From Geobacter sp. AOG1 (GTDB lineage Bacteria; Desulfobacterota; Desulfuromonadia; Geobacterales; Geobacteraceae): a DNA stretch of 64,000 bases. The position numbers and the translations under genes are program-made. The notes under the pieces were generated by a model that saw only the letters and a list, made by a program, of their open reading frames with translations, made no database searches and was not told the origin of the DNA. This document shows, piece by piece, positions 21,748-61,647 of the stretch (positions are counted from its first letter, which is position 1; each line of letters starts with the position of its first letter). The stretch lies in assembly GCF_019972315.1 (NCBI RefSeq), contig NZ_BLIZ01000001.1, positions 310,001-374,000 on the forward strand, given 5' to 3'.

Positions 21748-21810
21748 TTAGCAGGGATGCACATTCGCTGAACCAACCACCTTCGGTTTCGTGTAGGTCT
21801 GCTTTTTCAT
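21748..21810 (-). CDS. 20-residue HPC peptide 1, candidate GeoRSP precursor peptide
   Basis: The frame encodes MKKQTYTKPKVVGSANVHPC and ends TGC TAA. AAAGGAGA precedes the ATG by about 8 bases, which is a strong ribosome site. Three related peptides of identical length occur in the window (40365, 41572, 61585), and the one at 61585 has the same amino-acid sequence. This conservation at the protein level makes it a real gene despite its size. The YTKPKV segment resembles the YxxPxL recognition motif in leaders bound by PqqD-like domains, and a PqqD/radical-SAM pair is encoded at 31809-33135. It lies 70 bp downstream of a giant cytochrome gene and is probably co-transcribed with it. Confidence 0.75.
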   Translation of the reverse strand: MKKQTYTKPKVVGSANVHPC

Positions 21811-21880
21811 CGTTTCATCTCCTTTCCGCACTCACTTGCCGTTTGTGCAAGAGTTGGACCTCGTCTCTCTTCAAGTCACC

Positions 21881-24800
21881 TTACCATGGTGTTTTTGAGT
21901 TCCAGCGCTGCTTCATGGGATAGGTGGTATCTATTGTGTTGGCGTTGTCATGGCAGCTGTTGAACGCCCCGGTAGATGTATTGCCCCACCACCACTGTCC
22001 CGGATTCTGGGCCGACTGGCGTGGGTTGGATGGCGGCAGCGGACTGTAGTACCCGCCACCGATCGGGAACCGGCCCCGCCCTTTCCCGCACTGGCCGGTT
22101 GTTACTTCATGAAAACCATCATCGGTCGGGCTGGCGTAGCCGGTTGAACTTACGACACCGGCAACAGTCGCTACACCAACTATGCCAGTGGTCCCCTTTT
22201 GCCCCCGGTGCTCGAAGTTGAGACAGTTGACGGCCATGAGGCGGGGCAACCGGTAGTTGTGGGGGGCATGGCACTTGGAACAGGTATAGGAGTGAACCTT
22301 GTTGTTCGCATTGCCATCCGCCGCCGTGGATGTCGTTGCCCATCCCTTTACCGTGCCATGAATTCTGGACCGCGATTTCCAGGCGTCCGGCGCCACGTTC
22401 TGGCCCGCCTTGGGTGCCAGTAGCGTCTTGCTGTGGCAGTTGAGGCAGAGACCGCCAAACTGGGTGTCCGTCTCCTTAATCCGGTTCGTGGTATCGGCGA
22501 GGTTCCATTTCGTGGCGGTTTGCGCGGTCCCGAAGTTGACCTCGTTTGCGGTGGTGGAGCCGCCGAAGGTGTTCTGGTCGATATGGTACCGTGGTGTACT
22601 GCTCACATTCTGCTGGTTTGGCCGCGTTGTGTTTGAACCGCCATGGTTCGTCCCGCCACGCGACTCATTGGTATTCACCGGAGTGGCGTCCTCCTTGTAG
22701 GGAGAGGTCATCCAGGTCCCTTTCAGCAACGGTACCGAGTACGCCTGGTTGAGGGTCGGACTGACACCGTGCGGGTCGTGGCACGGCGTGCAGAGCCCGT
22801 TGATCTGGTGCTGGGCGTCGGGAGGGTTGTCCAGCACCGATGAGGCGCCGAAATGGCCACCCTTGTTTGCAACTACGGTGGCTTTATAGGCAAACCTCTG
22901 GGCGGGGCCGAAATAATCGCCGGCAACGGTCGGGGTTTTGAAATACGGAGAATCCCAGTACCCCATGATGCGCTGCGATGCGCCAAATGTACCGCTATAT
23001 CCCCACGGCAGTGTCGCGCCGGCGGTGGAGTTCAGGTGGCAGTCGAAGCAGAGTCCCGCGCCCGGATTGTATTTGGCGTTGGCAGTGGTGGAATCGGACG
23101 AGGGCTGGTAATTGGCGGTGTAGCCGCCGATACCGTTGTCCGTGTCCTTCAGAAGCGCGCCATGGTTGCGCCCCGTGGCGCTGGAATAGTTGCTGGTGAT
23201 CCCTTTGACCGTCGAACCGTGGGAGTTGTGGCAGTCATAGCAAAGGACGTTCACGGACCCGCCCGTGTTGGTTATTGGACCGTCCGTACCATTGGTAGTG
23301 TCCCAGCCACGCTTGTTGAGCGCAGAGTTGCCATGGGCTGAGAACGCCTTTATCACCGTATCCTTGGCATTGACGTTATGGGCGTTGGTCCCGGAGCTGG
23401 AGTACTTGCCCCATTTCACGCCGGCTGTCTGGGAATACCGCTCGTCGATGCTTTTGCCGTCCCACGCGTACTGCTGGGGGGTTTTCCCATCGCCGAATGG
23501 CTGGGCTGTGGCGCTCGCCGCACTATGGCAGCCGAGGCAGACTGCGTTGAGTTTCTGCATATCATGGCGTGTGCCGGTGGCGGAATATGGTACGAATGTC
23601 GTCGTGTTGCGCACCACGGGGCGTGCACCGCTCTGGTAAACGGCCAGATTGACCGGTGCACCCGATATTCTCATATCGTGATAGTTGACGTTGACCGTGC
23701 CGTCGCTGTTCGCTTCCCAGTGGCACTGGTAACAGTTCTGGTCCGCCACGCCGGCACCTTGGATATGGTGAGAATTGCCGCTGCTGAAAAAGCCCATGAC
23801 GGGAGCCCGCTTGTTGCGTTGAACGAACTTGTGGCAAACAGTACAGCCACCGATGGCCTTGAACCCCTGGTCATGCGGATGGCAGACGATGCAATCCACC
23901 TGCTGCGCCTTGTTCTCGTGGCTGACGGCCGCAGACATGTTCTGTCGGTGGTAGTTGGTCTGGGAGTGGCACACCTCGCAAATCTTGGTGGAACTGGTTA
24001 TTGCCGCCGAATAGACCCCGAAGCTCGGGTTCGTCCCATCATTGATCGTCGTCTTTGACTGGAACAGCACCGCGCTGCCGGGGAACGTGGTAGCATCCGG
24101 CGGAGTGAGCGTCACTCTGATCCGGGAGATGTTGGACGATCCCGGAATGTGGCAGGTGGTGCAGTCGAAGGCACCGTACTTGGCGCCAGGGATTCCCCAG
24201 CCGCCGTTGGCGCTCCAGTATGAAGCGCTCTTGGAACTGTTGGTCGCGTTGGTGCTGTTGTGGAGGAGTGCATTGTTGGCCCAGGCCGTCGCAATGAAGG
24301 TCGTCGCACTGTCGGACTGGGTGGTATGCCCCGAGCCACTCACGTTGACAGTCGACGTGAGGTTGTTGCCGCCAACAGCTGCCGCCTGGGCTTTTACCGT
24401 TAGGGTGGTGTTATATGTCGCTCCCGGAGCAAGTGCGCCGGTGGTAGCGCTCCCCAGAACGGACGGGAGAACGAAGCTTGCCGTGTTCCCCGTTTCCGTG
24501 CCAATAGCGATAGTGAAGGTGGTGCTGCCGCAGAACGCACTGTCGTTGTTCGTGACGGATAGCGTATAGACCGCCTGCTGACCAGGCTGAACGTTCGCAT
24601 TGGCGCTTAGGGTCACGGTCGGTGCGTTCGCCGTGCAGGTCCCTGCCGTGACGGTGAAGACCCCCGTGCCGGTGGCGGTGCCGCCAGGAGTCGTCACGGA
24701 CACGTTTTTGGCACCGGTCGTAGTTGCAGGAAGAACGGTAACCGGAACCGTGATCGTCGTTGCATTGACGACAGTGAAGGCGCCAAGTGCTATGTTGGCA

Positions 24801-26575
24801 TCATTGAAGCTGACCGCCGTGGCTCCGGTAAAATTGGTGCCGGTGATGGTAACCGTCGTTGGTCCTGTTCCCTGGGACATGGTGTTAGGCGATGTAGACG
24901 TAACCGTTGGCGGAGCGGGGGCATTGACCGTGAAGACCCCTGTGCCAGTCCCGGTTTGGCCGCCGGGAAGGGTGACCGTCACGTTGCGCGCCCCTGTTGT
25001 GGCTCCCGCTGCGACTGTTACCGGCACAGTCAAGGTGGTGGCGTTAACATACGTTACCGCCCCCAGTGTTATCCCCGTACCACTGAATGCCACCGTGGCG
25101 CCGTTCAGGAAGTTTGTGCCGGTGATGGTCACCGTGGTCGGCCCTGCGCCTTGTGTCATGCTGTTTGGCGATGTTGAAGTTACCGTCGGTGTCGGCGCCG
25201 CGTTGACCGTGAAGGCGCCAGTACTGATGGCATTCCCCCCATCAGGGTTGGTGACCGTCACGTTACCCGCACCGGTAGTAGCAGCCGGGCCGATGCTTAT
25301 GTTCACGGTCAGCTGGGTTGAAGTGTTGAACGTCGTGGAATTGACCGTTATGCCGCTACCGCTGAAGCTCGCCGTTGCACCGCTCTGAAAGTTGGTGCCG
25401 GTGATGACGACGTTCAGGGTGGTACCCTGGTTGCCGCTGCTCGGATTGAGCGGCGTCGATATGGTCGGGGGCGTGACCGTTCGCTTCGCAAGGATGACAT
25501 CGCGGTACACAGGATAGGAGCTTACCGAGGAAACCGTGTAGGTGACATTGGCATGGGTATGGGCGCTCGCTGAACCACCGGCGGTGCCAGTAGCTGAGGC
25601 ATAATTTCCAGTAGCTGCTCCTGATGTAGCATACACTTCGGTGCCACCATGGTTGAACGTGGCGCTGCCGCCGGTCGTGCCAGGGGTCGTTGCCGTACCC
25701 AGCAACAGGTTATTCGTATACGGCGCTGCATTGGAGATAACGGTCCACCCTCCTGTCGGGGTCGTATCGAACATGGCGATCAAGCCAACCGGGATGGGCG
25801 TGCTGGCGCCGGAACTGTTGTAGGCAAAAACCACCTGGACGTAGGGAGGCGCGTTGTTGTCGGCCGTAAAGGCGGCGGTTTGTGCGGCAAGCGTGTGGGT
25901 GTGGGTAGCGGACGCACGGTTAGTAGCCCCGGCATTGGTGCTTACCGTCCCGGATACCGCGCTGGTTGTCACCGCTCCGGTGTCATGGTTGTGGGTCGCC
26001 GCCCCTCCCGTTGCATTGTCGCTGAAGCCACGCAGGTAGTTACCATTGAGTGCCGCGTACTGGGTCCAGCCGGCGGGGAGGGTTGTAGTGTCGAATATGG
26101 CAATGGCGTTCGCAGGTATCTGTGTAGGGTTGGATGCTTTAATGAACACCAGGTTCTTGAAGGGGGGTTTATGATCCACCGTGGTCACGGTTGGAGACGG
26201 CCAGGTGTGTGTGTGGGCAACCGCCGCAGCCGCTGTACCACCCGGAGCGTATGTGCCTGTTGCGCCAGCTCCGGCCGATGAGAACGTCATGGTATGTGTA
26301 TGGGTGTCCGACCCTGCCGTCGCGGCACCGTAGGATGCGGCGGCACGGGGAAAGACTCCGTAAAACGCATCACCGGCTACGCTGGAGATGCTGGTCCATC
26401 CCGCGGGCACGGCACCGTTGGCGGTGTCCCAGAGCAGGATGACGTCTCCCGACGCGGCCTTTACCGGTTTTTCCTGGTACATGACTATGGTTGCCAGCAA
26501 GGTCGCCATTACTACCAGCCCTACCTTGACCCACAGATTCATCCCCCTAATTTTTTTCGCCATCGCTTTTCCCAT
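21881..26575 (-). CDS. Giant multiheme c-type cytochrome with tail-collar-like and IPT/TIG domains
   Basis: The 1564-residue protein begins with a membrane/signal segment (VGLVVMATLLATIVMY, about 17-32). About 330 residues follow in three repeats of the phage-tail-collar type (PAGWTSIS, PAGWTQYA, GGWTVIS with HTHT or HNH pairs), then three IPT/TIG Ig-like repeats (about 380-650, each with TSPNxMxQGxGPTTVTITGTNF) and a CARDB-like segment. From about residue 803 on there are 11 CxxCH heme motifs (CTTCH, CEVCH, CIVCH, CTVCH, CYQCH, CLGCH, CYDCH, CFDCH, CTPCH, CLNCH, CSKCH). It is an exported, probably surface electron-transfer protein. The heme half is nearly duplicated at 61718-64000. Confidence 0.85.
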   Translation of the reverse strand: MGKAMAKKIRGMNLWVKVGLVVMATLLATIVMYQEKPVKAASGDVILLWDTANGAVPAGWTSISSVAGDAFYGVFPRAAASYGAATAGSDTHTHTMTFSSAGAGATGTYAPGGTAAAAVAHTHTWPSPTVTTVDHKPPFKNLVFIKASNPTQIPANAIAIFDTTTLPAGWTQYAALNGNYLRGFSDNATGGAATHNHDTGAVTTSAVSGTVSTNAGATNRASATHTHTLAAQTAAFTADNNAPPYVQVVFAYNSSGASTPIPVGLIAMFDTTPTGGWTVISNAAPYTNNLLLGTATTPGTTGGSATFNHGGTEVYATSGAATGNYASATGTAGGSASAHTHANVTYTVSSVSSYPVYRDVILAKRTVTPPTISTPLNPSSGNQGTTLNVVITGTNFQSGATASFSGSGITVNSTTFNTSTQLTVNISIGPAATTGAGNVTVTNPDGGNAISTGAFTVNAAPTPTVTSTSPNSMTQGAGPTTVTITGTNFLNGATVAFSGTGITLGAVTYVNATTLTVPVTVAAGATTGARNVTVTLPGGQTGTGTGVFTVNAPAPPTVTSTSPNTMSQGTGPTTVTITGTNFTGATAVSFNDANIALGAFTVVNATTITVPVTVLPATTTGAKNVSVTTPGGTATGTGVFTVTAGTCTANAPTVTLSANANVQPGQQAVYTLSVTNNDSAFCGSTTFTIAIGTETGNTASFVLPSVLGSATTGALAPGATYNTTLTVKAQAAAVGGNNLTSTVNVSGSGHTTQSDSATTFIATAWANNALLHNSTNATNSSKSASYWSANGGWGIPGAKYGAFDCTTCHIPGSSNISRIRVTLTPPDATTFPGSAVLFQSKTTINDGTNPSFGVYSAAITSSTKICEVCHSQTNYHRQNMSAAVSHENKAQQVDCIVCHPHDQGFKAIGGCTVCHKFVQRNKRAPVMGFFSSGNSHHIQGAGVADQNCYQCHWEANSDGTVNVNYHDMRISGAPVNLAVYQSGARPVVRNTTTFVPYSATGTRHDMQKLNAVCLGCHSAASATAQPFGDGKTPQQYAWDGKSIDERYSQTAGVKWGKYSSSGTNAHNVNAKDTVIKAFSAHGNSALNKRGWDTTNGTDGPITNTGGSVNVLCYDCHNSHGSTVKGITSNYSSATGRNHGALLKDTDNGIGGYTANYQPSSDSTTANAKYNPGAGLCFDCHLNSTAGATLPWGYSGTFGASQRIMGYWDSPYFKTPTVAGDYFGPAQRFAYKATVVANKGGHFGASSVLDNPPDAQHQINGLCTPCHDPHGVSPTLNQAYSVPLLKGTWMTSPYKEDATPVNTNESRGGTNHGGSNTTRPNQQNVSSTPRYHIDQNTFGGSTTANEVNFGTAQTATKWNLADTTNRIKETDTQFGGLCLNCHSKTLLAPKAGQNVAPDAWKSRSRIHGTVKGWATTSTAADGNANNKVHSYTCSKCHAPHNYRLPRLMAVNCLNFEHRGQKGTTGIVGVATVAGVVSSTGYASPTDDGFHEVTTGQCGKGRGRFPIGGGYYSPLPPSNPRQSAQNPGQWWWGNTSTGAFNSCHDNANTIDTTYPMKQRWNSKTPW

Positions 26576-28128: not shown

Positions 28129-29190
28129 TCACGCACTCCGTTCGCGGAACAAAAGGCAACCGGCCAGGACAAAGGCGAACCCGGCAAGTACCGCAATCTT
28201 CCCCGAAAGGGGAACCCCTGCCGCCGTCGCCGCAACCCCCCAGGACTGAACGAGTGCCCCGCCGATGAACATCCCGACCACCACGAGACCTGCGTCCCCA
28301 TCCCCCTCGCCAGCCTTGATCAACTGCCGGAACGGGCACCCCCCGATGAGTACGGAAATCCAACCAGTTAGTCCCATGCCGAGAAAACTCCAGAGGGCAT
28401 CGAGGTGCGCGCCGGGTTGGCCGTAGTACCCCGGATTGAACCTTCCACTTGCAAGGTTGAACCCGGCCGCTGCGACGAGGAAGGCCATGAATCCCCAGAG
28501 CATGTAGGACCTACGCCCCATGAGCATGATGTCGCGGATGCTGCCGGTAATACAGAAACGGCTGCGTTGCGCGGCAACGCCAAGGGACAATCCCGCTGCA
28601 AGGGAGATGAGCAGGGGAGCATGCTGGGCCGCGCTCCCCCGCCCCGAGAAGAGGAGAAATCCGGGCTGGACGAAAAGGAACGCCAGCATAACGATGAACC
28701 CGACGGGGACAAGGAGTCCTTCCCCCCTCCCCTTTTGTTCGGGAGGTCCGGGCTCCACGCCGTTGGCAAGGCTTCGCACCCCTGCCCAGACACCGGCCAC
28801 CAGACCGGCCACACCAGCCAGGGCGGTCAGATCGCCGGCGGTCAGGCGGAGAAAGAGCTTGATGGGACAGCCGATAAATACCGCACAGCCGACCATCATA
28901 AAGATACCGGCAAAAAGCCGCGGCAGGGGCGCGCTGCCGCCGCGGGAGCGAAATTCGCGAAACAGGATGGCGCTCGCCGCCGAACCGAGGACGAAACCGA
29001 TCAACTCGGGACGCAGGTACTGCATGCGGGAATTATCATGGAAACCGAGTGCCCCTGCACTGTTTTCGATGAAGCAGGAAACACAGATCCCCGAATTCTC
29101 CGGGTTCCCCCACACCGCCAGGAGCACGCCGAGCCCCCCGAGAAGCACCCCCGCAGCAACCACTAGCCAGAAATGCCGGTCGCGCATCAT
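28129..29190 (-). CDS. yedE: YedE/FdhT-type selenium metabolism membrane protein
   Basis: The 353-residue protein has about ten hydrophobic segments and two YeeE/YedE (sulf_transp) repeats. The signature GNPENSGICVSCFIENSAGALGFH with YLRPELIGFVLGS near residues 28-72 is typical of the selenium-associated YedE subfamily. GCPIKLFLRL (about 107) and GGCPFRQLIKAG (about 290) are the paired conserved GCP motifs. It is thought to import a selenium or sulfur species. The ATG directly follows the upstream TPR gene's stop, placing it at the 3' end of the long GeoRSP operon. Confidence 0.8.
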   Translation of the reverse strand: MMRDRHFWLVVAAGVLLGGLGVLLAVWGNPENSGICVSCFIENSAGALGFHDNSRMQYLRPELIGFVLGSAASAILFREFRSRGGSAPLPRLFAGIFMMVGCAVFIGCPIKLFLRLTAGDLTALAGVAGLVAGVWAGVRSLANGVEPGPPEQKGRGEGLLVPVGFIVMLAFLFVQPGFLLFSGRGSAAQHAPLLISLAAGLSLGVAAQRSRFCITGSIRDIMLMGRRSYMLWGFMAFLVAAAGFNLASGRFNPGYYGQPGAHLDALWSFLGMGLTGWISVLIGGCPFRQLIKAGEGDGDAGLVVVGMFIGGALVQSWGVAATAAGVPLSGKIAVLAGFAFVLAGCLLFRERSA

Positions 29191-29733
29191 CTACTCGCAC
29201 CCCCCTGCCAGCCGGCTCCTGAGATAGTTGACCTTTTGCAGCGAAGCGGCAATGGTCCGGTTACCCGGATTGGCCGCAGCCCGTGTACCGATGTTCTTCA
29301 GCCCCTCATCCACGAGCCGCTGGATGTCGCCTCGCCGTGACAGGGGGCTTTTGTCGTCCAGGTAATCGCCATTCAGCTTGACACCGGCCACGTAGGATGT
29401 CACTGCCTCGTCCAGCGCCCCCATCTCCCGGAGTATTTCCCCCTGGAGGATATGACCATGGGCCTCGCCAGGATACTTGCGGATGAGTTCGTCCAGCTTC
29501 AGAAGGGCTTCCTGGTTTTTCCCCTCCTTGCGCAACCCTTCAACCGGCCCGTAGAGCTTGGCAATGAGTTCCACGCGGGCGTGGTAGGCCATCTCTCGCT
29601 CCACTGCCTTGTCGAGGCCGGAGGCGGCTTTCCCTTCTCCCGAGCCGGCTTTCATGCCGAGAAGGACGAGAAGGGCGATAAGGACGAGCGCCAGGCATGC
29701 CCAGCATAGTTTGTCGAAGGTGTCTTTGAACAT
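29191..29733 (-). CDS. Membrane-anchored TPR protein
   Basis: The 180-residue protein has one N-terminal membrane span (LCWACLALVLIALLVLLGM, about 9-27) and about three TPR-like helix pairs (KEGKNQEALLKLDELIRKYPGEAHGHILQGEILREMGALDEAVTSYVAGVKL). It is likely a periplasmic scaffold anchored in the inner membrane. It is immediately upstream of yedE with no intergenic base and 209 bp downstream of the PhnD-like lipoprotein gene; that 209-bp gap holds nothing recognisable. A specific partner cannot be named. Confidence 0.65.
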   Translation of the reverse strand: MFKDTFDKLCWACLALVLIALLVLLGMKAGSGEGKAASGLDKAVEREMAYHARVELIAKLYGPVEGLRKEGKNQEALLKLDELIRKYPGEAHGHILQGEILREMGALDEAVTSYVAGVKLNGDYLDDKSPLSRRGDIQRLVDEGLKNIGTRAAANPGNRTIAASLQKVNYLRSRLAGGCE

Positions 29734-29942: not shown

Positions 29943-30848
29943 TCAATATTTCTGATACGGCGGCATGTTCACCCGCTTCGCCATCTCCCGGATCGGATCA
30001 TAGTCGCTGTCGGGAAGTTCTTCGTAACCGTCGATCCAGGCCGCCTTCATTACCTTCAGCCGTTCACCGTCAACCTCGGCGGTGTCCGCCGACTTCAAGG
30101 CAAGAAGCGCCTCCTTCACCTTCTTCACCAGCGCGGGGTCGGTCCCCTTGGCCACGGCAAAGGTGCAGTAGGGTATCGGCTTGCTCTGGGCAAGGACGAC
30201 AAAATCATCGGGGGTTATCTTCCCCTCCCGCGCCATGGTCTCCAGGTCGAGAACAGGTGCTGCAGCCACGTCGTACTTGCCGTAGAGGACCCCGTAGATC
30301 AGCTTTTCGTGCTTGTAGGAACCCGGCGGAATCGAGTAGAACGCCAGGTCGTGCTCCGGATTGATCCCCGCGGCGAGCATCAGGTCATACTCGGCAAGAT
30401 ATCCGGTCGGCGCGAGCATCGGGCCGAACGCCAGCCGTTTCCCCCGGATGTCGGCCAGCTTTTCAATGCCGCTCCCCTTCCGGGCGATAATGGCACCGGC
30501 GGTACGGGCGCCGAACTTACCCCGCTTTTCGGAAGCGACGATCTGTACTCCCTCGTTTTCGCGAAGGACAATGTAGAGGAGCGAGTTTGTGTGGGTAAAG
30601 GTGAACTCGCCCGCCTTGAAGCGCTTTTCGAAGTCGAGGGTATCCACCGGTACCATCACGAAATCGACCCCCACCTTGTCCGACAGGTAGCGGGTCAGGG
30701 GGAGAAACCGCTGGGTCGTCTCCTGCTCGCTGTTGCAGAGCATGTAGCCGATCTTGACGACCGGGCGTTTCCCTTCGGTCTTGCAACCGGCGACGACCAG
30801 CAGCACGGCCAGGAAGATAACGAGTCTGATCATTGGAAGTATCCGCAT
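29943..30848 (-). CDS. PhnD-family substrate-binding lipoprotein
   Basis: The protein (301 residues from the ATG at 30848) is a type-2 periplasmic binding protein of the PhnD/phosphonate family: PVVKIGYMLCNSEQETTQRFLPLTRYLSDKVGVDF, IARKGSGIEKLADIRGKRLAFG, GVLYGKYDVAAAPVLDLETMA. The N-terminus has a lipobox VVAGC, so it is a membrane-tethered lipoprotein. No ABC permease or ATPase is nearby, so it may act as a sensor or ligand carrier rather than for transport. AGGA precedes the chosen start; a longer form starting at 30893 would overlap the SPASM gene. Confidence 0.75.
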   Translation of the reverse strand: MRILPMIRLVIFLAVLLVVAGCKTEGKRPVVKIGYMLCNSEQETTQRFLPLTRYLSDKVGVDFVMVPVDTLDFEKRFKAGEFTFTHTNSLLYIVLRENEGVQIVASEKRGKFGARTAGAIIARKGSGIEKLADIRGKRLAFGPMLAPTGYLAEYDLMLAAGINPEHDLAFYSIPPGSYKHEKLIYGVLYGKYDVAAAPVLDLETMAREGKITPDDFVVLAQSKPIPYCTFAVAKGTDPALVKKVKEALLALKSADTAEVDGERLKVMKAAWIDGYEELPDSDYDPIREMAKRVNMPPYQKY

Positions 30849-30883
30849 GTTGAGGTTCCTGTTGTGATGCATCAATGTAATAT

Positions 30884-31747
30884 TCATCTGCACGCTTCAT
30901 CTATGCCGTCGAGAGTTCCATGCATGACGTATGCCCTCCCCCGACAGCCACCCCGGCATTCAGCCAGTTCCCTGCAGTCCCGGCATCCTTCGGGGTCGAG
31001 CAGGAGCCTGCGCCTGAACTCCCTTTTTTCCGACGAAGCGATGATCTCCTTCAATGATCTTGCGCCGATCTTGCCCAGACGGACCGGCAGGGACGGACAG
31101 GGGTAGACGCCACCATCCGGCGAAATGGCGATCATGGTATTGGCCGCCTGACATCCCCCCTGGGGAAACGGCACCCCCGGATTGAAGGAGCGCCAGAGAA
31201 AGGGGTCGTGAATGGTGAGATTGATTCCCTCCGTGCCACCGGAAGCCGCAAGTTCTCTCTCAAGTTCCCCCTGTTCGTCCCGCGAAAGGAGGAAGGGCGC
31301 CTCACCGTTGTACAGACGCTGCATCGGCAGCACCAGCCGGTGGAATCCGCGCGCACGGCAGGTCGCAACAGTGCCCGGGAGCAGGCGCCAGTTGTCACGG
31401 GTCACCGACCAGGATACTCCGAGGGAGACCCGACCAGCCAGGTTCCCCAGCACGTCAGGGGTGTCGATGGCCAGAAGGACCTCCTTGACGCCGAGCTCTC
31501 CGACGGCGCTGCCGCCGAGGTGCGAAAACGAGTCGGGAGTCATGGTGAGTGAAACGGCGACCGGCATCCCCCTGAACTGCTCCAGAACTGCATGCAGCGC
31601 CTCACCGGGCCGGGGTGACGGGTCGTACAGCTGGAGCATGAGCGGACGGCATGCGGCGATGTCGGCAGCTATCCGCAGGAGGTAATCGCTGCGGGGAGCA
31701 TCGGGAGCCAGGTCCCAGTAGATGGTGATCGGTGTTGCCAGTTCCAT
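30884..31747 (-). CDS. GeoRSP system SPASM domain protein (no radical SAM cluster)
   Basis: The 287-residue protein has the overall shape of a radical SAM/SPASM enzyme but lacks the CxxxCxxC motif in its N-terminal half (ITIYWDLAPDAPRSDYLLRIAADIAACRPLMLQLYD). The C-terminal SPASM-type cysteines are present: CQAANTMIAISPDGGVYPC, then CRDCRELAECRGGCRGRAYV and a last Cys two residues from the end. It is probably a partner that presents the peptide or an auxiliary [4Fe-4S] site to the active enzyme at 31809. GAGGAAC precedes the ATG. I recall this pairing as part of the Geobacter GeoRSP system. Confidence 0.8.
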   Translation of the reverse strand: MELATPITIYWDLAPDAPRSDYLLRIAADIAACRPLMLQLYDPSPRPGEALHAVLEQFRGMPVAVSLTMTPDSFSHLGGSAVGELGVKEVLLAIDTPDVLGNLAGRVSLGVSWSVTRDNWRLLPGTVATCRARGFHRLVLPMQRLYNGEAPFLLSRDEQGELERELAASGGTEGINLTIHDPFLWRSFNPGVPFPQGGCQAANTMIAISPDGGVYPCPSLPVRLGKIGARSLKEIIASSEKREFRRRLLLDPEGCRDCRELAECRGGCRGRAYVMHGTLDGIDEACR

Positions 31748-31808
31748 ACTGATGTTCCTCGGTGATGAACTGCTGCGGCTCTTGCCTTGGAAGGCGGGCC
31801 GCAGGGCG

Positions 31809-32831
31809 TCACCGGGATGGTTCGTCGTCTCCCCAGCAGTGGGGGTCGGGGCTGTTCATGTCGCCGGTCAGGGCCAGTGCCCGTGCGGTACACCCCCCCA
31901 GGCAATCTTCGTACTTGCTGCAACCGCTGCATTTGCCGGTCGGTTGCTTGTTGCGCATCTTCTCCAGCACAGCCGAATCCTTCCAGACTTGCCGGAGGTC
32001 ATCCTGGACGATGTTGCCGATGACGATCGGAATAAAACCGCAGGGGGTCATATCGCCGTTGGCCTTGATGTTGAGCGAAAGCTTGCCGCAGACGCTCCCC
32101 TTGACGAGACTTCCCACGTTCCGCTCGCCGAGCAGTGCGATGATCGGGTCATCGAGGGAGATATCGAGCCCCTTCACGCTCTTTTTCGCAACGATGGCAT
32201 GACGGTAGAACTCTTTCCACTCTTCGGCAGTCAGGTCCAGATCGTCCTTGTTGGCCAGACCAAGTCCGGAGCACTTGAAGTTGTGGAAATTGAGCTGTCC
32301 CGCCCCATGCGTGAGGGCCATCGCCACGAGTTCATCGATGGCCGTGCTGTTGATGCGGCAGATAACCGTGGAAATGGAGGTGGCGATGCCCACCGCCTGA
32401 AGATGGCCAAGTGCGGCAAGAGCACGGCCGTGGCTTCCGGCGACGCCGCGGAAGGTGTCGTGAACGGCAGCGACGTGGCTGTCGATGCTGATCCCGACCT
32501 TGGTAAAGCCAGCCGTTTTGAGGGCGATCGCCTTGTCGCGGTCAAGCAGCCAGCCGTTGCTGTTCATGGAAACGCGCAGCCCCAGTCCGCTGGCAAACGC
32601 GGCAATCTCCAAAAGATGGGGGTGGAGCAGCGGTTCGCCGCCACCGAAGTTGATAGAAAAGACCCCTGCCTTGGCAACCTTTTCCAAGCACGCGTAGAGC
32701 ACATCCTGCGGCAGTTCCTCGTGGGTGTCCTCGCGGCTGTAGCAGTGGCTACAGGCAAAATTGCAGCTGTTGTTGATGGCCCAATTGATGGTAAGGGGTG
32801 CCTGCAGCTGGGGCATGGTATCATTCTGCAT
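31809..32831 (-). CDS. GeoRSP system radical SAM/SPASM peptide-modifying enzyme
   Basis: The 340-residue enzyme has the radical SAM motif CNFACSHC at residues about 22-29, a glycine-rich SAM-binding FGGGEPLLHP near 65, and a C-terminal SPASM domain: CGKLSLNIKANGDMTPCGFIP, then CSGCSKYEDCLGGC, with a further Cys in PDPHCWGD. SPASM enzymes of this size modify ribosomal peptides by thioether or C-C crosslinks. The gene overlaps the PqqD gene by 11 bp, so the two are made together. The likely substrates are the HPC peptides at 40365, 41572, 21748 and 61585; this link is inferred. Confidence 0.85.
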   Translation of the reverse strand: MQNDTMPQLQAPLTINWAINNSCNFACSHCYSREDTHEELPQDVLYACLEKVAKAGVFSINFGGGEPLLHPHLLEIAAFASGLGLRVSMNSNGWLLDRDKAIALKTAGFTKVGISIDSHVAAVHDTFRGVAGSHGRALAALGHLQAVGIATSISTVICRINSTAIDELVAMALTHGAGQLNFHNFKCSGLGLANKDDLDLTAEEWKEFYRHAIVAKKSVKGLDISLDDPIIALLGERNVGSLVKGSVCGKLSLNIKANGDMTPCGFIPIVIGNIVQDDLRQVWKDSAVLEKMRNKQPTGKCSGCSKYEDCLGGCTARALALTGDMNSPDPHCWGDDEPSR

Positions 32832-33135
32832 AGACGATGAAACCTTTCACGGCCAGTTCGTCGAGAAATGCACGAACATCGGCACGAAGCACGTCTTCTT
32901 CCACCTCAAACTGCTCCAGCAGTGCGGCCACGATCCCGTCGACAGTCCGGTTGTCACACAGTTTCCAAATTTCCATACCGAGGTAATTGACCGACAGCAT
33001 GGTGCCGCCGGAAAAGAGCACCGCGGTACCGATCTCGCCGGCATCCTCGCCGCGGGCAAGGGCGTCGCTCGCTTCGGCAAGGGCATCATCTTCCTCGCGC
33101 CACATGACATTGGGGTTGCGGTGTATGGTGGACAT
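32821..33135 (-). CDS. GeoRSP system PqqD-family peptide chaperone
   Basis: The 104-residue protein shows the PqqD/RRE fold: RNPNVMWREEDDALA, TMLSVNYLGMEIWKLCDNRTVDGIVAALLEQFEVEEDVLRADVRAFLDELAVKGFIVYAE. The winged-helix beta sheet would bind a precursor peptide and present it to the radical SAM enzyme. An insert (RGEDAGEIGTAVLFSGG) lengthens the first hairpin. AGGAGT lies about 7 bases before the ATG. It is 9 bp downstream of a beta-helix gene and overlaps the enzyme gene. Confidence 0.8.
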   Translation of the reverse strand: MSTIHRNPNVMWREEDDALAEASDALARGEDAGEIGTAVLFSGGTMLSVNYLGMEIWKLCDNRTVDGIVAALLEQFEVEEDVLRADVRAFLDELAVKGFIVYAE

Positions 33136-33144
33136 GCGTAACTC

Positions 33145-34128
33145 CTACCTCCCCGCATCCCCGACACGCTCCGCCAGGAACGGCGCGACAATGATCCGGG
33201 CAATAGACGGGTCTGCCTTGCCGTCGAAGATTAACTCCTCGATCTTCGACCGGTCCGTCATACCGAACCAGTTGCCGGCAGCAGGGATATCCGTCCCCTG
33301 CTCGTCGGCGATGGCGAGGTTGTAGTCAATGTTGCCGAAGATGTTGTTATCCTTGATGGTCATCCCCCCGGCCTTGTAGAAGAAGATTCCCTTCTGGTTG
33401 GCGGTAATTTCGTTGCGGCTGATCTCCCCCTCGCACTTTCCCTTGAGCCAAATGCCGAAGAACTTGTTGCCGCGGATAGTGTTGCGGGTGATGACCGCCT
33501 TTGAGATGCGAACGTTGATGCCACCCTTGTTGTCCTCGATGAGATTGCCGGTGACCGTGATGTCCGCAGGGATGCCGAAGCCGGGAGTTCCGACCGCCTC
33601 GTCTTCTTTCTTGACGCTGATGGCGACGGCGTTTTTCACGAAGGTGTCATCTTTGATGAGAACCTGTCCGCCGTGGGAATGGACACCGTTATAGGCATAT
33701 TCAACCCGGCAGTGTTCGACCACGTTCCCTTTACTCCCCAGGAAATTGAGGGACCCCCAGTCGGCAGGCTGGGGGTTAGCTTCTGCTGACGTGAAGAGAA
33801 TCGGTTTCTCGGCCGTCCCCTTGGCGATGAGCCTGCCCGTGACAATGATCTCGGCCTGGGGGTAATAGGGAGATTCGACCCCGAAGAGGTTCCGGTCGCC
33901 GACAGGTGCTATCTTTTTAAACCTTACCGTCGTCCCCGGAGCAATGGTGAGGGTACTACCCACCGGAACATGGACATCACCGGTAATAACAATATCACCC
34001 TCCCAGGTGGTGTCCTTTGTGATGGTTGCCATGCCTATTTCCCGCATTGCCGCCCGGCACTCTCCGGACAGTGTGATGAGAACTACGGTAACAACGGCAA
34101 GCAGCATCTGCCGCACGGTTGCGTGCAT
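33145..34128 (-). CDS. Secreted right-handed beta-helix (NosD-like) protein
   Basis: The protein (327 residues from 34128) has a signal peptide (MHATVRQMLLAVVTVVLITLSGECRAA) and about ten parallel beta-helix rungs, for example VTGNLIEDNKGGINVRISKAVITRNTIRGNKFFGIWLKG. The opening TKDTTWEGDIVITGDVHVPVGSTLTIAPGTTVRFKK recurs three times in the larger protein at 37787. It is periplasmic or surface-exposed and probably binds a polymer, peptide or metal. The ATG at 34128 is preferred over 34134 because GGGGGG lies 8 bases before it. Confidence 0.75.
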   Translation of the reverse strand: MHATVRQMLLAVVTVVLITLSGECRAAMREIGMATITKDTTWEGDIVITGDVHVPVGSTLTIAPGTTVRFKKIAPVGDRNLFGVESPYYPQAEIIVTGRLIAKGTAEKPILFTSAEANPQPADWGSLNFLGSKGNVVEHCRVEYAYNGVHSHGGQVLIKDDTFVKNAVAISVKKEDEAVGTPGFGIPADITVTGNLIEDNKGGINVRISKAVITRNTIRGNKFFGIWLKGKCEGEISRNEITANQKGIFFYKAGGMTIKDNNIFGNIDYNLAIADEQGTDIPAAGNWFGMTDRSKIEELIFDGKADPSIARIIVAPFLAERVGDAGR

Positions 34129-34130
34129 GG

Positions 34131-34685
34131 TCATATCCCCCCTCGCGATGTTTTCAACCTGGCCTGGACACCCTGTAGTGCCGAAAGAAGCGTAGCCTTC
34201 CGCTCCGTCTCCTTCTCCCTGTTGGCTCCCTTGCGGAGCAGCCTGTCGTTGACCTCCAGCCCCCGACGGTAGGACGCCTCGGCCTCCCGGTACAGCCCGG
34301 TCTGCTCGAACGCAAGACCGAGACTGTGATGCACCATAGTATCTTCGCTTTTTATGGCGATGGCTTTCTGAAACCAGACAATGGCCTCGGCCGGTTTTTT
34401 CCCCTTCAGCCTGATAAGTCCCATGACATCATGGGCATCGAAATCCTTCGGAGCCAACCTCAATGCCTCGGCAATCTGCTGTTCCGCCTCATTGAGCTTG
34501 TTTTTCCGGCATAACACCATCCCGAGTTTGGTTCTGGTCGCGATATCCTTGGGGTTGATCTCCAGAACGATCTTGTATTCGGTCTCGGCAATGGCGTCGG
34601 GGAGCAGGCCGGTCTCAGGGTGGGCCCAAACCGCGTGCGGAGCTAAGAGGAGAGCGCTTATGAAAAGAACGGTGAAATATTTCAT
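34131..34685 (-). CDS. Periplasmic TPR protein
   Basis: The 184-residue protein begins with a signal peptide (MKYFTVLFISALLLAPHAVWA) and carries four TPR-like helix pairs (EINPKDIATRTKLGMVLCRKNKLNEAEQQIAEALRLAPKDFDAHDVMGLIRLKGKKPAEAIVWFQKAIAIKSED). It starts in an ATGA overlap with the transporter gene and is followed within 2 bp by the beta-helix gene, so all three are one translational unit. Likely a scaffold in the periplasm; partner unknown. Confidence 0.75.
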   Translation of the reverse strand: MKYFTVLFISALLLAPHAVWAHPETGLLPDAIAETEYKIVLEINPKDIATRTKLGMVLCRKNKLNEAEQQIAEALRLAPKDFDAHDVMGLIRLKGKKPAEAIVWFQKAIAIKSEDTMVHHSLGLAFEQTGLYREAEASYRRGLEVNDRLLRKGANREKETERKATLLSALQGVQARLKTSRGGI

Positions 34686-35551
34686 AGCTGCCTGAAATGC
34701 GTGATCGACGTATACATGGTGACAATGCCGATGAGGGTAACGATGACAGCACTTGCAAACGCGATCTTCGGCGCATATCGTTCAGTATCCAGGAAGCGCT
34801 TTGTCGCCTTCACGCCATTGACCACCGCAAGCCCTATGGCAACGAGGCAGACGGCAAGGCCGAGACTGAAGACAAGGACCATGGCAAGACCTCTTCCAAG
34901 CTGTCCGACGGAAACCGATGCGAGTAGAATAGCCAGCGCCGCCGGGCAGGGGACGATCCCGCCGGATATACCCAGCAAAATCAGCCCCACCGGACCGAGG
35001 GGCTTGTCGCCGGCAGCGTGGTGATGGTCGTGGGAGTGATGATCGTGGGAATGACCGTGTGCATCCCCATGGTCGTGGTCGTGGTCATGGACATGGTCCG
35101 GGGCATCATGGGTGTGCGAATGGTCATGGGGGTGATCATGTCCATGATCGTGGTTGTGATTGGGGCCATGGTGACTGTGGCTGTGACCGAACAGGTGAAA
35201 ATGGTCGTGGGCACGTGCAGGGTCCTTCAGGCAGATCCACCTCTGCCGCAGCATCCAGAGACCGATGCCAAGAATAATGAGGCTTGCTACAATTCCGAGA
35301 TAGGCATGAATTTCCTGTTCTGACAGATACCGCGCGGAAAATTTCGCCAGAAGCCCCAAGAGAATGATGCTGAAGGAGTGGGTAAAGGTAACGACGATTC
35401 CAAGGATGATGGCGTCGATATTTCTTCCCCGGGAGCCGACCAGATAGGCGGCCACCACCGTTTTACCATGTCCCGGTTCCAGGGAATGGGCAGCACCAAG
35501 AAAAAAAGCGGCAATATAGATGCCGAACATCCCCGAACTCGTTATTTCCAT
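34682..35551 (-). CDS. NicO/RcnA-like nickel/cobalt-type transporter
   Basis: The 289-residue membrane protein has six to seven spans and the conserved HSLEPGHGKTVVAAYLVG motif near residues 22-40 typical of this family. A very His/Asp-rich cytoplasmic loop (about residues 120-175, with runs of HDH and HSH) lies in the middle, followed by GGIVPCPAALAILLASVSVGQ. Family members export or import Ni(II) or Co(II); direction cannot be decided here. Overlap with the ResB-like gene (10 bp) and TPR gene (4 bp) places it firmly in the GeoRSP operon. Confidence 0.85.
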   Translation of the reverse strand: MEITSSGMFGIYIAAFFLGAAHSLEPGHGKTVVAAYLVGSRGRNIDAIILGIVVTFTHSFSIILLGLLAKFSARYLSEQEIHAYLGIVASLIILGIGLWMLRQRWICLKDPARAHDHFHLFGHSHSHHGPNHNHDHGHDHPHDHSHTHDAPDHVHDHDHDHGDAHGHSHDHHSHDHHHAAGDKPLGPVGLILLGISGGIVPCPAALAILLASVSVGQLGRGLAMVLVFSLGLAVCLVAIGLAVVNGVKATKRFLDTERYAPKIAFASAVIVTLIGIVTMYTSITHFRQL

Positions 35552-36468
35552 AGAACCTTCCCGTAAAAGCGCCTTATGAAGGACAATACCGCCCCAAGGC
35601 CCATGATGGCAAAACCGGCAAAGACATAGGGTCTTCCCGGATCCCGCACAATTTGAATACCGGCATACACCGCGCCGGCAGCATCCCGGTCAACCCGTGT
35701 ATTGTAGAAATAGAGGCCGTTCCACTGAAACGGGTTGTTGACCTCGGAAGTCCCCTCGGCCAGTTTTTCGGAATTGCTGGCAAGGGCCAGGTCAACCCAG
35801 AGCCTTTTCAGCGAAGGGTTCTGGTAGGCCACCAGCTTGAATGCATAGGGGAAGTCGGGGGGGAGGTCAGATGTCCCTGCCGTATCACAGACCCCCAACA
35901 AGCGGCCCTGATCAAACACGGAAAGCCTCAGGTTTTCCGACGGGAATTCCAGGGACTCGACCTTTATCCGGTAGTTTTTCAGGTCGAAGCTTTCTCCCGT
36001 CTTCAGGACAAAAAGCCCTTCCTTCTCTCCCCCCCGCAGAACACCAACCTTTACCGGTATGGGGTAAAACTCGCGATTGACCTTTTTCACGACCAGTTCC
36101 GCCCCGAGAGGGACGTCTTGATTCCTGTCCCATCGATAGACTTGGTCCACCATACTCCCTTCGTAGACATTGACGGTCGCCACATAGCCGAACGACGTGG
36201 CAATACACCCCGCCAGCGTGAGGAGTACGCCGCCATGCATGATCAGGACAGGTTTTGACAGGGTCTTGAGCCGCTTCATGGTACAGAACAGAAGGTTCAA
36301 CCCAAAACAGCCCAGAAGCGACAGAAACGGGGGACTCGAATAGATGGTCCTGCTTTCGGTAAAGGTCCCAGGAATGGCCAAAATGGCAATCGCCAGGAAC
36401 AGTACAACCGCACATTCGGTTGACGCCAGCCAGGATATTTTCTTCTTCATTCCCTCGGGTATCGTCAT
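35542..36468 (-). CDS. ResB-like cytochrome c biogenesis protein
   Basis: The 308-residue protein has three N-terminal membrane spans (about 13-33, 48-65, 75-95), a periplasmic domain rich in beta strands, and one C-terminal span (YVFAGFAIMGLGAVLSFIRRF). This is the ResB/Ccs1 topology, including the FQWNGLYFYNTR and IQIVRDPGRPYVFAGFAIMGLG segments. ResB proteins deliver heme or reduced apocytochrome c. No ResC partner is visible. Its presence in an operon with metal transporter, beta-helix and SPASM genes may mean a specialised role in heme or thiol handling. It starts 4 bp after the preceding stop. Confidence 0.7.
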   Translation of the reverse strand: MTIPEGMKKKISWLASTECAVVLFLAIAILAIPGTFTESRTIYSSPPFLSLLGCFGLNLLFCTMKRLKTLSKPVLIMHGGVLLTLAGCIATSFGYVATVNVYEGSMVDQVYRWDRNQDVPLGAELVVKKVNREFYPIPVKVGVLRGGEKEGLFVLKTGESFDLKNYRIKVESLEFPSENLRLSVFDQGRLLGVCDTAGTSDLPPDFPYAFKLVAYQNPSLKRLWVDLALASNSEKLAEGTSEVNNPFQWNGLYFYNTRVDRDAAGAVYAGIQIVRDPGRPYVFAGFAIMGLGAVLSFIRRFYGKVLWK

Positions 36469-36472
36469 CCCG

Positions 36473-37021
36473 TTATATTAACTTCTTTCCCTTCAGGAAT
36501 TCTTTTGCCGTCTTTTTCGATTTTTCATTCGACTCGGCGGACTTGAGCAGCTTCGCATAGGTGTCGTTTACCAGAACCCCCGAAAGCTTGTTCAACAGTT
36601 TGGGGAGGGCCGGATAGTTGGAGAGTGTGTCCGCCGTCAGGACCGGTGCAAACTTCAGGGAGCCGCCGATCGGCTCAAGCCATGTCAGGTTCAGCCTGGT
36701 TTTGTACTCGCTCTTGATCTGGTCGTATGTTGAATCCTTGGGCTTCCCGACAATCTCCGCCCCACGACCGGTGTTTTCGAAAATTACGTTCACGCTCCCC
36801 TGCTTGACAGCGTTGTACAGTTCTTTTGAGTCCTTGTAGACATCGATCTTGACCGAGGAACCGGTCCGCTCGGTGATCAGGATGGATGCCATCTCTGCCA
36901 ACAACCGTTCACTGGCGGCGCTGGTGACCCCAAGGTGGATTGTCTTGCCGACACAGGCAGACGATATCTGGACGACAGCAAGAATTGATACGACGAGGCA
37001 CCATGAAATGACCTGTTTCAT
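36473..37021 (-). CDS. Periplasmic substrate-binding protein (OpuAC / PBP type)
   Basis: The protein (182 residues from 37021) has a signal sequence (MKQVISWCLVVSILAVVQISSACVG) and the opening KTIHLGVTSAASERLLAEMASILITERTGSSVKIDVYKDSKELYNAVKQGSVNVIFENTGRGAEIVG, typical of quaternary-amine/glycine-betaine binding proteins. At 182 residues it is shorter than usual (about 280) and seems to lack much of the second lobe. No ABC transporter subunits are present. The ligand is unknown. GGGAGTG before 37021 supports that start over 37063. Confidence 0.65.
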   Translation of the reverse strand: MKQVISWCLVVSILAVVQISSACVGKTIHLGVTSAASERLLAEMASILITERTGSSVKIDVYKDSKELYNAVKQGSVNVIFENTGRGAEIVGKPKDSTYDQIKSEYKTRLNLTWLEPIGGSLKFAPVLTADTLSNYPALPKLLNKLSGVLVNDTYAKLLKSAESNEKSKKTAKEFLKGKKLI

Positions 37022-40285: not shown

Positions 40286-40310
40286 TGATCGCAGAGTACC
40301 TGAAAATAAT

Positions 40311-40346
40311 AGAGAGGCACCGAAAACAGTATGTCGGTGCCTCTCT
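40311..40346 (-). terminator. Strong hairpin between peptide gene 4 and the operon (attenuator candidate)
   Basis: AGAGAGGCACCGA and TCGGTGCCTCTCT are perfect 13-bp arms around a 10-base loop, followed on the minus strand by ATTATTTT. It lies 18 bp after the peptide stop and 25 bp before the beta-helix start. Partial termination here would make peptide mRNA more abundant than the enzyme mRNA, as seen in many RiPP operons. Confidence 0.75.
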
Positions 40347-47828: not shown

Positions 47829-47904
47829 CTGTTCAGCCCCCGAAAATTTATAAATTAATCGAATCTTATTAATGGTTGCGCGGGAACAGGCCGCTACCGG
47901 ATCA

Positions 47905-48864
47905 CTAACGGGTACTGGAGGGGGTAGGATTGGCTCCACCGTCAATACCGAACATGACCAGGTTACCATTGCCATTCACGACGATGAGCCGCCTATTGAT
48001 CTGACCGAATGCCACGTCCTGCGGCACCGCGAGTTGGCCATTGGCGGCGCCGTTACTGCCGATAGAGGAAAGGAACCTGCCGCTTCCTTCGGGGGCTATC
48101 ACCTGGACGGTGTTTGCGTACATGTCGGCCACATACATCCTGGTCATCTGGCCTGCCACGTCGTACTCGAAGGTGACGCCGACCGGCATCCTGAATTGAA
48201 GTGGCTGATTCCCCAACGAACCAATGCTTTTTACGAAATCGAAATTACCCGTGGCGCTAAAGAATTGCACCCGCCCGTTCTGGGTGTCTGCAACCGCAAT
48301 CTGGTTGGCTGACTTCTCATACGCTATACCGGTCGGATGGGACAACTGGCCTTCACCACCCCCCTGACACCCAATCGCCTGCACAAAGTGCCCGGTTGCG
48401 GTGAACACCTTGACGTTGTTATCCAGAGTATCGACGACATACACGTAGCCGGCAGCGTCTACGGCAATTCCGTTCGCCTTCCTGAACTGGCCAGCACCGG
48501 AACCGAGCCGTCCGATCTCCCTGCCGCTCTGGTCAAGGATGACGACCGAATCGCCCTGGCTCACCAGCAGATTTCCCTTGTCGTTGAGGGCAATCCCCTG
48601 GGGCGGAGCAGGGGTCTTCAGCACTCCGATCAGCTGGCCAGAGGCGCTGAACTTGGAGATTCCTCCCTTGCGGGGATCGGTCACATAGTAATTCTCCTGG
48701 CCGTCGAACACGAGGCGAAGCGGCGAGCCGACATTCTCCGTCACCGGCTTCAGAACGGTCACCATCGGCACCGTTGCTCCGTATGCAACGGCTGCCAGCG
48801 AAATTGCCGGGACGGCCACCAGGGTGGCGACAGTAGCAATGAGTTTGCGCAATCTGGTTAGCAT
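47905..48864 (-). CDS. Secreted NHL-repeat beta-propeller protein
   Basis: The protein (319 residues from 48864) has a signal peptide (LIATVATLVAVPAISLAAVAYG) and about six NHL-type blades: GQFRKANGIAVDAAGYVYVVDTLDNNVKVFTATG and GQLSHPTGIAYEKSANQIAVADTQNGRVQFFSATG are the clearest. Such propellers accompany multiheme cytochromes in Geobacter and may scaffold or dock them. The start at 48864 follows GGAGG by 7 bases, whereas 48870 is only one base after it. It is 76 bp upstream of the giant cytochrome and shares its transcript, driven from 48998-49026. Confidence 0.8.
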   Translation of the reverse strand: MLTRLRKLIATVATLVAVPAISLAAVAYGATVPMVTVLKPVTENVGSPLRLVFDGQENYYVTDPRKGGISKFSASGQLIGVLKTPAPPQGIALNDKGNLLVSQGDSVVILDQSGREIGRLGSGAGQFRKANGIAVDAAGYVYVVDTLDNNVKVFTATGHFVQAIGCQGGGEGQLSHPTGIAYEKSANQIAVADTQNGRVQFFSATGNFDFVKSIGSLGNQPLQFRMPVGVTFEYDVAGQMTRMYVADMYANTVQVIAPEGSGRFLSSIGSNGAANGQLAVPQDVAFGQINRRLIVVNGNGNLVMFGIDGGANPTPSSTR

Positions 48865-61519: not shown

Positions 61520-61545
61520 GAGGCGGGGCCATCCGGCCCCACCTC
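61520..61545 (-). terminator. Hairpin between peptide gene 3 and the membrane TPR gene
   Basis: On the minus strand GAGGTGGGGCC and GGCCCCGCCTC pair, with one G-U, around a GGAT loop, followed by TATTCTTTTT. It is homologous in shape and sequence to the hairpin after peptide gene 1. It may terminate or attenuate transcription before the membrane gene. Confidence 0.65.
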
Positions 61546-61584
61546 CTCAATTCACTGCATATCAACACTATGGTTCACTTCGTT

Positions 61585-61647
61585 TCAGCAGGGATGCACA
61601 TTCGCTGAACCAACCACCTTCGGTTTCGTGTAGGTCTGCTTTTTCAT
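61585..61647 (-). CDS. 20-residue HPC peptide 3, identical to peptide 1
   Basis: The frame encodes MKKQTYTKPKVVGSANVHPC and ends TGC TGA, against TGC TAA in copy 1. The AAAGGAGA ribosome site and 70-bp spacing from the cytochrome stop match copy 1. The identical residues with a different stop codon and diverged downstream DNA show that the duplication included the peptide gene and that the peptide sequence has been kept. Probably co-transcribed with the cytochrome at 61718. It is followed by a terminator-like hairpin. Confidence 0.77.
   Translation of the reverse strand: MKKQTYTKPKVVGSANVHPC

Follow-up and report, generated by a model that had tools for sequence, protein, structure and literature searches.

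The window analysed here is a stretch of 64,000 nucleotides of Geobacter sp. AOG1 (contig NZ_BLIZ01000001.1, positions 310,001 to 374,000). It carries, on the minus strand, four genes for 20-residue peptides that end in His-Pro-Cys (HPC peptides), and three genes whose products are classed as members of the GeoRSP system by curated cut-offs (TIGR04302, TIGR04303 and TIGR04304; Table 1): a PqqD-family peptide chaperone, a radical S-adenosylmethionine (SAM)/SPASM enzyme and a second SPASM protein. An earlier inspection of the letters alone (the sequence-only reading) had taken the HPC peptides for substrates of the enzymes at 31809-33135. This assignment was strongly supported by co-occurrence of peptide and GeoRSP, by linkage in two phyla, and by a leader motif together with matching residues in the recognition element (RRE) for ribosomally synthesised and post-translationally modified peptides (RiPPs).

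The translations of the four frames were reproduced exactly (MKKQTYTKPKVVGSANVHPC twice, MKRCKYVRPRVVGNAVVHPC and MKKQAYVKPRIVGSADVHPC), and the strong ribosome sites ascribed to them were recovered as GGAG or GGAGG about 8–11 bases before each ATG. The DNA pattern for GxAxVHPC-stop, GGNNNNGCNNNNGTNCAYCCNTGYTRR, occurs at 6 places in the 3.68-Mb genome; read backwards as a control, it occurs at 0 places. The two copies beyond the window lie at C1:2148960 and C1:3171318, and the proteins of these copies 5 and 6 are MKKAKYVAPKVVGSATVHPC and MKKQAYAKPRIVGSAVVHPC. Copies 1 and 4 share 62/63 bases and about 92% of the 200 bases upstream, and are thus recent duplicates, whereas every pair involving copy 2 or 3 has 35–46 of the 63 bases in common. 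The claim of conservation despite DNA differences therefore holds for copies 2 and 3 but not for copies 1 and 4. The segments 21748-22010 and 61585-61850, each made up of one of these duplicates and about 200 upstream bases from the end of the cytochrome gene, are nearly the same in sequence. Further up, their identity fades, a pattern suggestive of a duplicated or gene-converted 3' module.

The HPC family was collected from 123 distinct places, encoding 100 distinct proteins, with the consensus MK[KR]x[x]YxxP[KR][VI][VT]Gx[ASG]xVHPC-stop. Most places encode 20 residues (86) or 19 (33), the others 18 (2), 17 (1) or 21 (1). The narrower consensus of the sequence-only reading fits the four window frames, but the family is wider, both in length (17–21 residues) and at position −6, where S, G or T replaces A in some other lineages; F can stand for Y. 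C, P, H, G, P and Y are identical in 123/123 places and V at −4 in 121/123, an invariance that is only partly independent, since G, H, P and C were required by the search and V, A, Y and P were required in part. Under the order search pattern, which does not require Y and P, these residues were in place at 70 of the 71 pattern sites of loci L068-L147, and the sole site without them is a chance match in genome G122. The mean entropy at codon positions 1, 2 and 3 of the HPC places was 0.53, 0.54 and 1.56 bits; third positions are thus about three times as variable as the others, and it is the protein that is conserved, not the DNA. A scan of 257 billion bases of genome contigs with the exact pattern YxxPxxxGxAxVHPC-stop, which misses variants without A at −6, returned 104 stretches. 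All of the 80 stretches listed were labelled Geobacter-type, Desulfuromonadales-type, unspecified Deltaproteobacteria or Nitrospirota/Thermodesulfovibrionia, and the frames among the matches listed were mostly of 19–20 codons with a ribosome site. The HPC family is thus present in Geobacter relatives and some Nitrospirota, that is, in at least two phyla.

None of the NCBIfam and Pfam models gave a match to the HPC peptides, although 20-mers can fall below the HMMER filters. Selenocysteine at the codon after the cysteine was excluded; the stops are TGA in 77 places, TAA in 37 and TAG in 9. Twelve loci, most of them lacking a peptide, were searched around the cluster for variant peptides, and the only one recovered was that already known in L282. 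On contig C69 of genome G625 (L376), three peptide-like frames lie within about 2 kb, one with an LHPC end, near a 26%-identity match to the window radical SAM protein.

The comparison of GeoRSP-positive and GeoRSP-negative genomes proposed in the sequence-only reading gave a clear association in three samples. In the order sample (141 genomes, the order taken as Geobacterales), TIGR04303 was found in 35 genomes, the peptide pattern in 38 and both in 32. The peptide was thus present in 32/35 GeoRSP-positive versus 6/106 negative genomes (table 32/3/6/100, p = 3e-22; the Fisher values here and below assume independent genomes and disregard relatedness). GeoRSP alone was found in G046, G055 and G090, and the pattern alone in G014, G017, G021, G100, G103 and G122. 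The match in G122 (GVAPVHPC) was dropped as a peptide gene because it has no start codon and no ribosome site, and a peptide of G055, MKKKKYVRPRIVGASVVHPC, was added, after which the table read 33/2/5/101 (p = 1.7e-24). Permuting the peptide labels within genera gave an overlap as large as the observed one in 0 of 20000 rounds; for the raw table the permuted overlap averaged 21.4 and peaked at 29, compared with 32 observed. Among 200 genomes of the Nitrospirota class, TIGR04303 was found in 27; the pattern occurred in 22 of these and in 0 of the 173 negatives, which were tested by pattern only (p = 7e-25). Four of the five pattern-free GeoRSP genomes of this class contain a variant found by profile (G165, G171, G208 and G225), and G196 contains none.

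In the phylum sample, which comprised 395 genomes, the enzyme was called by TIGR04303 at E≤1e-60 and the peptide by its profile at E≤1e-4. The enzyme was found in 27 genomes, 6 of them under the curated cut-off, and the peptide in 29, with 5 more at E 0.01–0.05 left uncounted. This corresponds to 26/27 GeoRSP-positive versus 3/368 negative genomes (p = 3e-36), with G518 having GeoRSP only and G542, G587 and G702 the peptide only; five GeoRSP genomes are common to the phylum and order samples. In a test of the profile on 14 genomes, true matches had E values below 1e-6 and others above 0.1. The association was also approached from the peptide side, with 23 genomes picked from a peptide-only scan (21 Nitrospirota, one Desulfuromonadales, and G163, which is G103 again): TIGR04303 was found at E≤1e-60 in 20 of them, in 19 over the cut-off, and was missed in G147, G160 and G163. 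Frames of 20 codons are common, and the G122 match illustrates that a VHPC end can arise without a start or ribosome site, so chance or an annotation artefact was considered as the origin of the family. The reversed patterns gave 1 match in 141 genomes and 0 in 200, compared with 77 and 36 for the true pattern; together with the codon-position entropy and the co-occurrence, these controls refute a chance origin, whose probability we regard as negligible.

The gene order around the radical SAM gene was compared in 36 fetched loci of Geobacterales and Nitrospirota. It is largely similar: a giant protein, peptide, CpD1, peptide, NosD1, CpD2, OpuAC, ResB, (NicO, TPR), (PhnD, small TPR, YedE), NosD2, PqqD, radical SAM and SPASM. 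Parts of the cluster are missing or moved in many of the loci, and PhnD and YedE often follow SPASM in Geobacterales. A peptide gene lies within the same stretch of ≤20 kb in 23/36 loci, some of these stretches having been chosen to include it. A further 18 loci centred on the radical SAM gene came from Nitrospirota (1) and from other groups of the phylum (17). In 12 of them (L357-L367 and L373) the peptide gene immediately follows the radical SAM gene, and in 6 it lies elsewhere in the genome. Neighbours in these loci were recognised by their resemblance to the genes of the window; the model TIGR04112 was applied to the YedE gene of the window only. PhnD and YedE are present in 16/18, and the other two loci are short of flank.

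At 97 peptide sites examined with a crude gene caller, the nearest upstream gene is on the same strand in 81, a contig end intervenes at 8, and the upstream same-strand gene has at least 4 CxxCH motifs in 36. Adjacency to multihaem cytochromes, as seen in the window, is therefore frequent but not universal; the other upstream genes scanned encode fibronectin-type giants, CarboxypepD_reg, rhodanese and OmpA proteins. These 36 sites would suit a role of the HPC peptides as unmodified partners or metal-binding subunits of giant cytochromes, with fibronectin-type proteins as the other giants and GeoRSP as a mere fellow traveller of an electron-transfer gene set. However, cytochromes of the GSu_C4xC__C2xCH family, with frames up to 2218 residues, are present in 18 of 23 chosen genomes that are free of both GeoRSP and peptide, and outside the order the peptide stands behind the radical SAM gene itself at the 12 loci mentioned above. 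The former result rules out the cytochromes as the true associate and indicates that the peptide follows GeoRSP; we consider the partner role very unlikely.

A strict intrinsic terminator lies within 120 bases after the peptide gene in 53/123 places, against an average of 0.2 in shuffled sequence; a loose count (106/123 versus 83 shuffled) was set aside as uninformative. The terminators would be compatible with regulatory leader peptides (attenuators), in which ribosome stalling controls a downstream terminator, but they equally fit the last gene of an operon. Moreover, the residues are fixed while third codon positions are free, no residue occurs in a run, and the genes that follow vary in length and strand while the tail and YxxP stay the same. 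Regulation of a neighbour would also leave the genome-by-genome tracking of GeoRSP unexplained, and attenuation is accordingly a highly improbable account of the family.

The segment YxxP[KR][VI] of the HPC peptides fits the leader motif of lasso-type PqqD/RRE systems as given in three papers: [Y/W]xxPx[L/V/I/F/A] is recognised by discrete lasso RREs (PMC13381572), YxxP is listed as a characterised RRE motif (PMC12710340), and YxxPxL is given for lasso leaders (PMC10368454). A comparison of the GeoRSP PqqD protein with the PDB, up to E 0.1, returned two entries and no others, TbiB1 (5v1u/5v1v, with TbiA; E 0.004) and LppB (9x8z; E 0.043). Both are RREs solved with leaders, and the leader of LppB, LppA, is of the YxxP type. 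The motif contacts in LppB are described in PMC13381572: D70 forms a bond to the Tyr, the kink at the Pro is held by N33, and F74 packs against it. These residues align with N50, D86 and F90 of the GeoRSP protein in an alignment read by hand, where N33, D70 and F74 pair with N50, D86 and F90; the offset of 18 between chain and published numbering also fits T30, L32, V35, C39, I56, Y60, V63, V67 and M78. Among 55 distinct PqqD-like sequences gathered at E≤1e-3, some of which may fall outside GeoRSP, N50 is conserved in 54 and D86 and F90 in 53 each. PMC13381572 also describes N33 and D70 as shared by many RREs of PQQ and lasso systems; they are thus marks of YxxP-type binding at large and not of GeoRSP.

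The two SPASM proteins differ in their cluster motif. CxxxCxxC is present in 27 of 30 frames assigned to the radical SAM enzyme (of the other three, two are mis-assigned SPASM-protein frames and one is truncated) and in 0 of 27 SPASM-protein frames, several of which are shortened by start choice. The pair therefore looks like an active enzyme and a pseudo-enzyme, the SPASM protein being a probable pseudo-radical-SAM partner. By sequence, the nearest solved structures of the radical SAM enzyme are PqqE (6c8v) and SkfB (6efn), and the SPASM protein matches solved structures in its SPASM region only. An AlphaFold model of the latter has PqqE as its best fold match (E 3.9e-4); with a mean predicted local distance difference test score of 57.8 from 3 sequences, a PqqE-like fold is only suggestive. 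The window radical SAM enzyme stays below the cut-offs of the mycofactocin maturase model TIGR03962 (172.5 bits, cut-off 265) and the PqqE model TIGR02109 (119.5 bits, cut-off 381.35).

The HPC peptides travel with GeoRSP, often beside giant secreted proteins, and are very probably its missing raw material. We infer that they are translated, bound, modified and exported. The first 15–16 residues (MKKx[x]YxxP[KR][VI][VT]GxA) would serve as leader and about xVHPC as core. The PqqD-like protein would bind YxxP[KR][VI] in its RRE cleft and present the tail to the radical SAM/SPASM enzyme, which would pair with the second SPASM protein, apparently bereft of the radical SAM cluster motif, and modify the conserved VHPC. 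The likeliest chemistry would be a radical cross-link at the C-terminal cysteine (a thioether to a neighbour); the main alternative would be oxidative decarboxylation of the last residue, which is the reaction performed by MftC. We put the proposed chemistry at roughly even odds.

Since many copies are the last genes behind giant secreted proteins, the product would most likely be extracytoplasmic, and whether it works there with these proteins we judge to be about evenly balanced. The mature product may also be diffusible like PQQ (a redox carrier, metallophore or signal), the giant neighbours being merely co-regulated. The proximity of the radical SAM enzyme to PqqE among solved structures, the mycofactocin maturase among its nearest families, and the recurrence of periplasmic binding proteins and a YedE-type transporter in the cluster point in this direction. 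Genomes contain up to six copies, however, mostly behind different large genes, which suggests supply in step with those proteins, and no peptidase for core release was recognised among the window cluster genes. A diffusible product is a real possibility, short of an even chance. A further reading, which we hold to be rather unlikely, is that giant secreted electron-transfer and fibronectin-type proteins receive the modified VHPC peptide as a new kind of peptide-derived prosthetic group or as a covalent cap, with copies made beside the protein served and a special C-terminal tail of that protein being recognised. In line with this, a WN..W tail is found in 22/36 multihaem genes beside a peptide versus 3/26 not beside one in the same stretches, and a Cys within the last four residues in 10/13 large non-haem neighbours versus 39/470 in a background that includes those 10 (both comparisons are post hoc and uncorrected for relatedness). 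Examples of genes in front of peptides are the cytochrome 21881-26575 and genes in L116, L126 and L136.

Several observations weigh against the HPC peptides being GeoRSP precursors. In G046 (one contig, 100% complete), G090 and G196, the radical SAM enzyme is over the cut-off and a full-length SPASM protein is present (under its cut-off in G196), with the peptide absent by pattern and by profile; in G518, where no peptide was found either, the radical SAM match is under the cut-off and the SPASM matches are weak. Conversely, the peptide is present without the GeoRSP radical SAM enzyme in G014, G017, G021, G100, G103, G147, G160, G542, G587 and G702. Five of these ten genomes are 66–81% complete, G103, G587 and G702 are 96–98% complete and two are unrated; no SPASM protein in any of the ten reached the TIGR04304 cut-off. 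The two RRE matches of the PqqD protein in the PDB are weak (E 0.004 and 0.043), and among the window cluster genes neither a peptidase nor a peptide exporter was recognised. Overall, we estimate the probability that the HPC peptides are the precursors of the GeoRSP RiPP system at about 0.88.

Table 1. Positions of the HPC peptide genes, the GeoRSP genes and their neighbours in the window.
Feature	Position	Strand	Remarks
HPC peptide gene copy 1 (MKKQTYTKPKVVGSANVHPC)	21748..21810	-	71 bp behind multihaem cytochrome gene
HPC peptide gene copy 2 (MKRCKYVRPRVVGNAVVHPC)	40365..40427	-	between CarboxypepD_reg gene and beta-helix gene
HPC peptide gene copy 3 (MKKQAYVKPRIVGSADVHPC)	41572..41634	-	45 bp behind 34-CxxCH giant cytochrome gene
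HPC peptide gene copy 4 (MKKQTYTKPKVVGSANVHPC, protein as copy 1)	61585..61647	-	recent duplicate
GeoRSP radical SAM/SPASM enzyme	31809..32831	-	TIGR04303, 614.9 bits, cut-off 400; proposed maturase
GeoRSP PqqD-family peptide chaperone / RRE	32821..33135	-	TIGR04302, 164.8 bits, cut-off 100; proposed leader binder
GeoRSP SPASM protein	30884..31747	-	TIGR04304, 339.4 bits, cut-off 300; no CxxxCxxC
Giant multihaem cytochrome, 11 CxxCH, TIG and CoaZ repeats	21881..26575	-	gene in front of copy 1
Giant multihaem cytochrome, 34 CxxCH	41679..47975	-	gene in front of copy 3
Multihaem cytochrome	61718..63949	-	gene in front of copy 4
YedE-family putative selenium transporter	28129..29190	-	TIGR04112, 410 bits, cut-off 200; conserved core neighbour
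Small TPR-like protein (g29191)	29191..29733	-	weak TPR matches
PhnD-type periplasmic binding protein	29943..30893	-	conserved core neighbour
NosD/beta-helix protein (NosD2)	33145..34134	-	directly upstream of PqqD
TPR protein	34131..34685	-	
NicO-type transporter	34682..35551	-	
ResB-like protein	35542..36450	-	
OpuAC-type periplasmic binding protein	36473..37021	-	
CarboxypepD_reg protein (CpD2)	37086..37790	-	
NosD/beta-helix protein (NosD1)	37787..40330	-	conserved cluster member
CarboxypepD_reg protein (CpD1)	40559..41347	-	conserved cluster member between two peptide genes

The listed NosD1 frame (37787-40411) overlaps copy 2, and the true start is probably downstream of this copy. The cytochrome 21881-26575, with its CoaZ repeats and IPT/TIG domain, also matches domain III of the quinohemoprotein amine dehydrogenase alpha subunit (29.8 bits, cut-off 22). 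From the YedE-type transporter and the binding proteins, we suspect that a small compound containing sulfur or selenium, or the product itself, is transported. Genes resembling YedE are repeatedly found close to GeoRSP in Geobacterales, other Desulfobacterota and Nitrospirota, and the system may be connected with selenium or sulfur. In L100 and L103 the peptide gene follows a 139-residue protein that is NikR-like by eye, which with the NicO transporter hints at nickel, and in L107 (by Pfam) and L093 (by eye) it stands behind a rhodanese-domain protein. In L131, L132, L133, L102, L104 and L147 the draft contigs stop about 60–500 bases 5' of the peptide gene, as if the module of giant gene end and peptide were an assembly-breaking repeat.

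A literature search, which did not cover subscription papers and preprints, found no paper on GeoRSP or the HPC peptides. Peptides modified by radical SAM and PqqD proteins are of a known kind; the precursor family, its scattered multi-copy arrangement and the link to giant secreted proteins are new to us. A nearly fixed four-residue tail ending in cysteine is, to our knowledge, unusual. The candidate substrate makes GeoRSP directly testable with three proteins and one synthesisable 20-residue peptide. If the assignment is true, a very small system for peptide modification, whose conserved tail spans four residues and which is present in at least two phyla, would be added to those known, and the modification would be linked to giant secreted cytochromes.

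The window proteins are members of GeoRSP as defined by TIGR04302, TIGR04303 and TIGR04304, and the peptide family is the addition made here. The corresponding components of known pathways are MftA, MftB and MftC for mycofactocin and PqqA, PqqD and PqqE for PQQ (pyrroloquinoline quinone). GeoRSP resembles both in combining a short precursor, a PqqD-type chaperone and a SPASM radical SAM enzyme, and differs in the VHPC tail, the partner SPASM protein without the cluster motif, the several scattered precursor copies and a cluster rich in periplasmic and secreted proteins. The HPC precursors are short but, contrary to the sequence-only reading, not exceptionally so, since PqqA averages 23 residues (PMC3023750). 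Mycofactocin is the nearest analogy, in that its precursor likewise has a strongly conserved C-terminal region, with seven invariant residues among the last eight positions (same paper). With lasso peptide leaders and the LPP family, GeoRSP shares the YxxPx[VI] leader motif and the RRE residues N, D and F; it differs in its core of about 4–5 residues and in having a radical SAM enzyme in place of the lasso enzymes, neither an asparagine-synthetase-like lasso cyclase nor a B2 protease appearing in the Pfam and NCBIfam matches of the window cluster genes (28129-41416). Sactipeptides and ranthipeptides (SkfB, SCIFF) have SPASM radical SAM enzymes and a conserved core cysteine in common with GeoRSP, and SkfB is near among the solved structures; the HPC peptides are distinguished from them by a single C-terminal cysteine as a rule, on which a thioether is proposed.

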